Below the pieces are notes generated by a model. The model was not told the DNA's origin. It did not search any database and was given only the letters and a program-made list of their open reading frames with translations. Of a stretch of 33,776 nt of DNA, positions 31,371 to 33,776 are shown in pieces. The DNA comes from Candidatus Cloacimonadota bacterium. Its GTDB lineage: Bacteria > Cloacimonadota > Cloacimonadia > Cloacimonadales > Cloacimonadaceae. The DNA lies in assembly GCA_012516855.1 (NCBI GenBank), contig JAAYWB010000022.1, forward strand, positions 1-33,776. The letters run 5' to 3'. The first letter of the stretch is position 1; each line of letters begins with the position of its first letter. The position numbers and the translations under genes were made by a program.

Positions 31371-31608
31371 CCCGCCAAACAGGCCCTTAGCGCCCGCGAC
31401 CATCCCTCTCCCACGCCCCTTGCACAATGCCCGCATCAAATGCGGGAATCATGCGGGAGGCGAAACCAAGGCCAAAGAAAGAGCCTTAACGGCCCGACCA
31501 TACGCTGGCGTCGAGCGAGGAACGAGCATCGACGGCAGCAATGAATGATTATTCCAATACCTCCTGTCATCCCTGCTCACTACGTTCGCTGTACGCCAGG
31601 CTCCGAGG
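31371..31608 (-). repeat. Intergenic multi-hairpin repeat, copy 5 (reverse), full form
   Basis: This complete reverse-oriented copy has GGCCCTTAGCGCCCGCGA, the long hairpin with inner CCCGCAT/ATGCGGG arms (31428-31444 and flanks), AGAGCCTTAACGGCCCGA, the first hairpin (CTGGCGTCGAGCGAGGAACG ... ATCGACGGCAGC) and the extended tail ending GCTGTACGCCAGGCTCCGAG. The last 99 bases (31510-31608) match copy 6 with 3 differences by eye. It lies 35 bp after the acetyltransferase stop. The 31609-31790 stretch shows no gene. Confidence 0.9.
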
Positions 31609-32454: not shown

Positions 32455-32559
32455 GCTGTCGTCGAGCGAGGAACGAGCATCGACGGCAGCAATGAATGAT
32501 TATTCCAATACCTCCTGTCGTCCATGCTCACTGCGTTCGCTGTACGCCAGGCTCCGAGG
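32455..32559 (-). repeat. Intergenic multi-hairpin repeat, copy 6 (truncated, reverse)
   Basis: Only the first hairpin (GTCGAGCGAGGAACGAGCAT ... CGACGGCAGC) and the tail ending GCTGTACGCCAGGCTCCGAG are present. By eye, 96 of 99 bases match copy 5. The copy stops at GCTGTC (32455), where unrelated sequence begins, so the hairpin half of the element is missing. The 32252-32454 stretch before it is A+T-rich with no gene. Confidence 0.9.
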
Positions 32560-32561
32560 CC

Positions 32562-32738
32562 ACGTCATCCCGGACGTCACAGAGCTTGCGAGGTGATATT
32601 GATCCGGAATCCAGTATACGAGGGGCTCACGTTCCCTCGCTATCCTTATGTCACCCTACGGGCTCGATCAACCAGCTCGACCTCCCGGTTTGATACAAGA
32701 TCTATAATGACAAGCCATAAAGCTTTATTGTTTTGTCC
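32562..32738. other. Non-coding spacer with palindromic GATCCGGAATCCAG-type sequence
   Basis: This spacer holds CGTCATCCCGGAC (32563-32575) and, after an insert, GATCCGGAATCCAG (about 32600-32613), an outward-facing pair like the half-sites of palindromic repeats known from several bacterial genomes. It also holds GAGGGG...CCCTC (about 32621-32639). Only one copy is in the window, so the repeat nature cannot be shown here. No gene is visible. Confidence 0.3.
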
Positions 32739-32765
32739 GGTGTATTGAAAGAAATGTAGTTGCTA
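32739..32765 (+). repeat. Insertion-sequence terminal inverted repeat, left
   Basis: 27 bases starting GGTGTATTG and ending TTGCTA; an exact reverse complement of 33750-33776. It overlaps the last codon of the transposase gene. Confidence 0.93.
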
Positions 32766-33685
32766 TTTAGCCAACATGTAGTCGATGATTTTCTTTCTTC
32801 TGGTGTCTCTAATACCTTGATGAGCTTTGAGTTTTGCTTTAAGAGAGCTGTTTATTCCCTCTATCGAATTTGTGGTGTTGGGAATCATGCGATTTGGATA
32901 CTTCTGGTAAGTGAACAGATAGGGCATATTTGATCTTAGGCTACGAATTGCACTTCTTAGTCGTTTATGCGTGTAGAACCACTTTCCGGTACTGGAGTAA
33001 GTCCTTTCCTTCAAAAACTGATCCCATTTCAACTGCCACAACTCAATAAACATAGAGAACACTACTTCACAGGTAGAGCTTAGAGTTTCAACGATCGCTT
33101 TCAATTCAACCCCAGCTGGAAGTATCGGATTTTTGGTTAGGTATCTTGTGATGATCTGTTTCTGACGGAACTGGCACATTTGTACAGGGATACCAGGAAA
33201 AGATGAAAACAAACCCTTTTTGCCATCACAGACTATACCCGTTACAGAGCAACCCTTAGCGATGATTTGTTCTATGCCATGCTTGTATGTCTCTAGAGTT
33301 TCATGCTGCACATACAGCCAAAGGAGATTGATCTTGCAGTTGGGATCCCGAAAGATACTTACCCCAAAGCCTCTTCTGAAATAGGTAGTATCCATTACCA
33401 CTATTGCACTTGAAGGATAGTCTATAACCGGTGTAACCTGGTAGCTGCCCAAGTATTTTTCAATCACCGCATGACTAACGGAGTATCTTTCACAAAGCTC
33501 GTGTATGGTTTGTTTGTGGTCTATATAGTCCTTCCATATCTTAGCGGCCCAGGAAGCAGTGAAGTCTCTACGCTTGTTGTTGAATACGTGCTTGCAGTCA
33601 AGACAACGGTATCTTTGCATTCCTCTGAAAAAGCCGTTTTTTTTACTCGATTCGAATGGCATTTAGGACAACGCTTTTTATACAC
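32763..33685 (-). CDS. Transposase, two-frame (-1 frameshift), IS256-type with N-terminal zinc ribbon
   Basis: The catalytic part has Asp in 'VVMDTTYFRRGFGVSIFRD', Asp in 'GIVCDGKKGLF', and Glu in 'NTTNSIEGINSSLKAKL', the DDE pattern of IS256-type (mutator) transposases. In that frame it starts only at ATG 33662, in the middle of a zinc ribbon. A neighbouring frame starting at GTG 33685, six bases after GGAGG, reads VYKKRCPKCHSNRVKK and supplies the missing CxxC. A -1 shift at A_AAA_AAA (33638-33644) joins it to 'NGFFRGMQRYRCLDCKHVF'. The joined protein has 307 residues with Cys6, 9, 28 and 31, and catalytic residues near 99, 154 and 276. The short form would lack half the zinc site. Confidence 0.85.
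33638..33644 (-). other. Candidate -1 frameshift (slippery) site in the transposase gene
   Basis: On the reverse strand the zero-frame codons GTA AAA AAA ACG contain the canonical slippery heptamer A_AAA_AAA within a run of eight A. Slipping back one base joins the CPKC-encoding frame to the catalytic frame exactly. The same A run would also allow transcriptional slippage. A one-base sequencing error would look the same. Confidence 0.7.
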
Positions 33686-33749
33686 TTTTATCCTCCAAAA
33701 TAAAAGTTAGTATTTAACTATATGCCACTCTTATGAATAACCCCCTTTT

Positions 33750-33776
33750 TAGCAACTACATTTCTTTCAATACACC
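33750..33776 (-). repeat. Insertion-sequence terminal inverted repeat, right (window end)
   Basis: 27 bases ending TTTCAATACACC at the last base of the window; an exact reverse complement of 32739-32765. It lies 64 bp upstream of the transposase GTG start. Confidence 0.93.

Follow-up and report, generated by a model that had tools for sequence, protein, structure and literature searches.

The end of a contig from a Candidatus Cloacimonadota bacterium (JAAYWB010000022.1; the whole stretch of 33,776 nucleotides analysed is called the window here) carries a transposase gene whose zinc ribbon is divided between two reading frames that meet at a run of eight A's. This raises the question of whether the gene is broken or whether its product is made by recoding at the run, and, if so, by which machine. 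We consider it quite likely that the locus is an insertion sequence (IS) of the IS256 superfamily (IS256_Zn_var) that expresses its transposase by conserved recoding at an A run, mostly through polymerase slippage, which would act as a throttle. Slippage in cells, its level and the machine responsible are points that we infer from sequence comparison.

A complete insertion sequence at the contig end

The final kilobase of the window was a complete IS of 1,038 bp on the minus strand (32739..33776), and the contig terminated exactly at its end, which leaves flanking DNA on one side only. The transposase gene was bounded by 27-bp terminal inverted repeats with a 100% match, as found in insertion sequences, one at the 5' (transposase start) end (33750..33776) and one at the 3' end, overlapping the transposase stop codon (32739..32765). 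The first-pass annotation had given a span of 32763-33685, which holds for the gene part and omits the IS ends. The same IS end was found with different flanking DNA in two copies of genome G011 (L033 and L035) and in a second copy of the window's own genome, of which only the end was present at the edge of contig C2 (C2:1-111, 98%). A single complete copy was thus assembled in the own genome, and the C2 copy stops short of the A run; conservation of the run was therefore examined in relatives. A sigma-70 promoter and terminator scan gave no match, and a viral-contig database yielded a single relative.

The catalytic frame alone scored 339.7 bits, and the fused product 346.9 bits, against the profile NF048019 (IS256_Zn_var; cut-off 150), placing the protein in this family. 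Of the D, D, E and C-x-x-H motifs of the IS256 superfamily, the three acidic residues were present on the minus strand as Asp91 (MDTTYF, 33390..33392; 79/80 relatives), Asp146 (CDGKKG, 33225..33227; 76/80 relatives) and Glu268 (NTTNSIEG, 32859..32861), the last position being Glu in 36 and Asp in 36 in an automatic alignment of 80. The His of the C-x-x-H motif is replaced by Arg166 (33165..33167, minus strand). This position is His in 76/80 relatives and is retained as His in the sister copy in G011 (L023/L065). Arg166 is probably a damaging change, and the window copy may be catalytically impaired or inactive even if its recoding is genuine. Because Arg166 replaces a near-invariant His, the window copy is perhaps a poor choice for experiments.

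A zinc ribbon divided at the A8 run

The catalytic frame (32763..33662, minus strand, 299 aa) is intact and starts in the middle of the ribbon, with the second CxxC alone (CLDC, 33594..33605, minus strand). The two cysteines of this motif are strongly conserved (Cys20 in 80/80 and Cys23 in 77/80 relatives). The first CxxC (CPKC, 33659..33670, minus strand) lies in the neighbouring start frame, which was read as an open reading frame of 54 aa if unshifted (33521..33685, minus strand). This frame opens with GTG (33683-33685) behind a Shine-Dalgarno GGAGG (33692-33696, minus strand), and a GGAG-like sequence stands at the same place in most relatives with a mid-ribbon split. The two frames join at the A8 run (33637..33644, minus strand), where the start frame reads ...CGA GTA AAA AAA ACG... 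and A_AAA_AAA is exactly in phase. The arrangement that the first-pass annotation had described, with a catalytic frame beginning inside the ribbon, CPKC in the neighbouring frame behind GGAGG and GTG, and a join on a canonical slippery heptamer in an A8 run, was recovered in full at these minus-strand coordinates.

A change of -1 (or one additional A in the mRNA) is needed at the run, after which the catalytic frame is entered at AAC (Asn9). With the one-base -1 shift, the product is a transposase of 307 aa whose four-cysteine zinc ribbon is complete (...CPKCHSNRVKKNGFFRGMQRYRCLDC...), and the predicted junction peptide of the window element is ...CHSNRVKKNGFFR.... All three domain profiles improved from the catalytic frame alone to the fused protein: NF048018, the four-Cys zinc domain, from 3.9e-6 to 3.6e-11; NF050000 from 3.8e-7 to 5.3e-12; and NF048019 from 1.5e-101 to 9.6e-104. 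The fused protein reached 43.5 bits against NF048018 (cut-off 27), the four-cysteine ribbon being complete only after the frame change. Coverage of the ribbon by the NF048019 profile begins inside the first CxxC, as would be expected if the members of this profile lack their true N-terminus. The catalytic frame has an ATG at 33662, inside the ribbon. We rejected it as an internal start since it loses the first CxxC, has no Shine-Dalgarno sequence and has no counterpart in most relatives.

Conservation of the split in the closest relatives

Nine relatives besides the window, from Cloacimonadota and related metagenome-assembled genomes (MAGs), are split within the ribbon at the same codon, giving a set of ten from at least six genomes (window, L033, L062, L063, L113, L036, L029, L057, L064 and L045). 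In the start frame they carry a start codon, in most cases behind a GGAG-like Shine-Dalgarno sequence, and CPxC (CSKC in L033 and L062). In 10/10, an A7 or A8 run begins 41-42 nt from the start codon, and the remaining half of the ribbon lies in a different frame. A split that falls on one and the same codon in divergent relatives goes beyond chance. Before the run, mean amino acid identity in this set was 0.49 in the start frame versus 0.29 and 0.34 in the other frames; after the run, it was 0.55 in the catalytic frame versus 0.25 and 0.26. Variability was likewise highest at third codon positions, those of the start frame ahead of the run and those of the catalytic frame beyond it. The selected frame thus switches at the run.

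L062 (JAGPKI010000108.1) lies in a MAG labelled Caldisericia. The element is interrupted by several stops and differs very little from Cloacimonadota copies; its contig is probably misbinned, and L062 was left out of the evidence for taxonomic spread.

Out-of-frame starts in wider homologues

A scan of named genomes yielded 80 loci, mostly at 35-50% identity. From these loci and relatives found in other searches, we classified 80 homologues with a usable 5' region, belonging to Bacteroidota, Patescibacteria, Pasteurellaceae, Cardiobacterium, Campylobacterota and others. In 67/80, an out-of-frame start is followed by a run of 5-8 A's ahead of the first CxxC (pre-ribbon type), and 7/80 have the mid-ribbon run. 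Only 1/80 was cleanly in frame (L112, ATGAACAAGAAGAAATGC), its run being interrupted by G's. L124 is in frame and has lost the first Cys, L107, L108, L137 and L141 are broken, and the automatic start assignment was ambiguous for L131.

Pre-ribbon elements typically have an ATG (or TTG) in another frame and an A run within a few codons, such as ATGAATAAAAAAAATGC or ATGAATAAAAAAAGTGC, and a stop codon of the catalytic frame usually lies just ahead of the run. The sequence ATGAATAAAAAAAG is a further type of A run besides the A8 of the window, and a few relatives have runs of only A5-A6. An ATG, GTG or TTG in the catalytic frame ahead of the first Cys was present in only 6 of the 67 pre-ribbon homologues, which means that translation has to arrive at the conserved first CxxC in another frame.

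The same out-of-frame run was found in 11/11 readable copies of Cardiobacterium, seven in the complete C. hominis genome and four in C. valvarum. Aliarcobacter plasmid records showed the same out-of-frame layout, with annotated hypothetical proteins of ~200 aa whose starts lie within the gene. An independent sample covered 296 genomes from one order (Flavobacteriales, around genome G128); here, 5/5 matches above the cut-off with a readable 5' end were out of frame with A6-A8 (L196, L197, L198, L200 and L201), three of them in a more distant subfamily at ~200 bits. The split at the A run, which the first-pass annotation had proposed to follow by comparing copies, is thus kept across homologues, and the in-frame read-through copies that would have spoken against it were absent among relatives keeping both run and ribbon.

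These data bear on two other explanations of the split. Homopolymers are error-prone, the contig stops at the IS so that copies have perhaps been collapsed, and Arg166 suggests decay, all of which would fit a run length misread in sequencing or assembly, or a single gene copy that has decayed at the A run. However, unrelated genomes share the split, complete ones among them (Cardiobacterium, Aliarcobacter plasmids), which contradicts this for the family; in addition, the 299-codon catalytic frame of the window has no stop, and purifying selection in two successive frames is not expected of a broken gene. An error or lone pseudogene is accordingly very unlikely. Alternatively, replication could change the run length and switch the transposase on in rare cells. 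A runs do mutate readily, and the runs of relatives differ by one A. However, in-frame ('on') copies, which should be the transposing ones, were practically absent among the 80 homologues, and the 11 Cardiobacterium copies all had an identical out-of-frame run, leaving such phase variation highly improbable.

Evolution of the proposed slippage site

In a maximum-likelihood tree of 80 transposases, the position of the site changed once, the mid-ribbon elements forming one side of a branch (SH-aLRT 88). This suggests that the window clade merely moved the slip site within a lineage that uses recoding. The required direction was far less stable: -1 is needed in 44 homologues and +1 in 30, with at least 12 switches between the two across the tree, an estimate that is subject to the ambiguous L131 and the broken L107, L108, L137 and L141. 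In clear sister pairs such as L079 (A6G) and L080 (A7G), or L066 (A8) and L069 (A7), the runs are a single A apart and the required shifts are opposite, yet neither member is in frame. Run length drifts from one out-of-frame state to the other and avoids the in-frame one, which argues that the frame break itself is maintained.

Probable mechanism of recoding

We propose that translation of the window transposase starts at GTG 33685, in the frame of the first half of the ribbon, and that at the A8 run a minority of products would shift by -1 into the catalytic frame to give the 307-aa transposase with its complete ribbon. Products that stay in the start frame would terminate after 54 aa, with only half of the ribbon. 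The slipping machine is most likely RNA polymerase, which would insert one extra A into part of the transcripts; in the window copy, the ribosome may also, or instead, slip by -1 on A_AAA_AAA. Without a shift, the window element yields half a zinc ribbon, and most relatives yield a peptide that ranges from a few residues to a few tens. The shift therefore most likely does no more than limit the level of transposase. The net effect would be a throttled transposase, with no second regulator made.

The first-pass annotation had suggested programmed frameshifting of the IS1 and IS3 kind. That the transposase is subject to programmed recoding is strongly supported by the conserved split, the switch of the selected frame and the lack of in-frame relatives keeping run and ribbon; the mechanism that the annotation named is possible for the window copy, but polymerase slippage fits the family better. 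Purely ribosomal -1 frameshifting would be well served by the textbook heptamer A_AAA_AAA, exactly in phase in the window, L062, L113 and L036, and A_AAA_AAA and A_AAA_AAG together make up 72% of the heptamers in the IS1 and IS3 families (PMC4066793). However, L063, L064, L045 and L060 of the same clade carry A7 and need the opposite direction. The in-phase X_XXY_YYZ heptamer typical of IS1 and IS3 is also absent in many relatives: most pre-ribbon runs, including the commonest, ATG AAT AAA AAA AGT GC, have no in-phase tandem slippery heptamer, and the A7G and A6C runs of the family have no tandem slippery heptamer. Folding around and downstream of the site was no better than that of shuffled sequences (window z +1.1), giving no sign of a stimulatory stem-loop, and no Shine-Dalgarno-like stimulator was seen by eye upstream of the run. 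A purely translational shift is therefore doubtful.

Polymerase slippage is favoured across the family because both directions occur, many runs have no in-phase heptamer and no stimulatory fold was found. It is usually cited for nine A's, and the A7-A8 runs of the elements here are shorter. The occurrence of both shift directions within one transposase family has been used by Antonov et al. as a criterion for transcriptional realignment (PMC3711429), and direction was not conserved among our homologues (44 versus 30, with the changes noted above). As for run length, only seven A's are needed for slippage in IS1447 (PMC6211511), and elements with eight A's have been proposed to slip (PMC1088944).

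Comparison with known elements

Transposase recoding has been listed for the IS1, IS3, IS5 and IS630 families (PMC5009743). We found no description of recoding or frameshifting in IS256-type or IS1249 elements in the open-access literature, and the family to which the window transposase belongs, 'IS256 family transposase, variant Zn-binding type' (NF048019), bears a name without reference to recoding. IS1 (insA/insB') and IS3 resemble the window element in that low-level recoding at an A-rich site yields the full transposase, and the model of the IS1 N-terminal zinc-binding domain also matches the window ribbon. However, the upstream products of IS1 and IS3 are generally DNA-binding regulators (PMC5009743), whereas that of the window is half a ribbon and that of most relatives a very short peptide; the catalytic domain of the window is IS256/Mutator-like.

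The ISMich2 group (p-MULT 4, Mutator superfamily) likewise has a two-ORF transposase with a predicted, conserved -1 shift (PMC3942029). By description it is set apart, belonging to p-MULT 4 and not to the IS256 group, with only -1 reported (PMC3942029). IS1447 (IS3 family) and IS630-type elements share slippage on an A run and a direction that is not fixed within the family (PMC6211511, PMC3711429), but their transposases are unrelated, and IS1447 has A9 and a measured slippage of ~16% each way. The nearest named relative was IS1249 of the IS256 family (E 2.1e-39), with the same ribbon and DDE layout. It is ~26% identical and has no A run, an ATG opens the frame of its ribbon, and the window protein scored 135.7 bits against the IS1249-family model NF033544, below the cut-off of 300.

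Taken at the level of the lineage, and with moderate confidence, we suggest that IS256_Zn_var elements obligatorily slip on an A run, usually within the first few codons, and that the out-of-frame state is actively kept even as run length and direction drift, with the site moved once into the ribbon, giving a throttle without an OrfA regulator in Bacteroidota, Patescibacteria, Cloacimonadota, Gammaproteobacteria and Campylobacterota. Recoding is apparently the rule of this lineage and seems to have escaped annotation. The first-pass annotation had called frameshifting unusual for an IS256-type element, which does not apply within this lineage, where nearly every sampled element needs recoding. 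If this reading is correct, a widespread IS256-type lineage joins the recoded transposases, a start-proximal A run can act as a minimal throttle, and many 'truncated' or 'hypothetical' transposase genes are intact with wrongly annotated N-termini (e.g., the Aliarcobacter copies). The relocation of the site and the repeated flips of direction would also offer a natural experiment on polymerase versus ribosomal slippage.

Other features of the elements and their surroundings

The distant subfamily, at ~25% identity or ~200 bits to NF048019, has a CWxC ribbon and an out-of-frame ATG followed by A7-A8 (L148, L198, L200 and L201, from Flavobacteriales and Emticicia). Four Pasteurellaceae elements (L128, L129, L140 and L142) carry a long hairpin (e.g., GTGGCTTAAAGCC...GGCTTTAAGCCAC followed by T's) whose end lies ~10 bases upstream of the out-of-frame ATG. 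Such a hairpin could terminate transcription that enters from outside, or could promote slippage when it forms in the nascent RNA. An inverted repeat also lies upstream of the start of L143 (NZ_CP071820.1, 116926-120192), a relative with 41% identity that sits beside an IS630-type element on a conjugative Klebsiella pneumoniae plasmid; its annotation gives a hypothetical protein that begins at a TTG. Near the first CxxC, L059 and L044 encode a related transposase with ATGAGTATAAAGAAAAAAAACGC out of frame plus an in-frame upstream ATG (MLIDKRSY...). Outside the IS, intergenic repeats (GTCGTCCATGCTCACTGCGTTCGCTGTACGCC...) occupy positions 32500-32693 and 31549-31608 of the window; their family has ~50 partial matches across the genome, 75-100% identical, and is possibly a MITE or another dispersed repeat.
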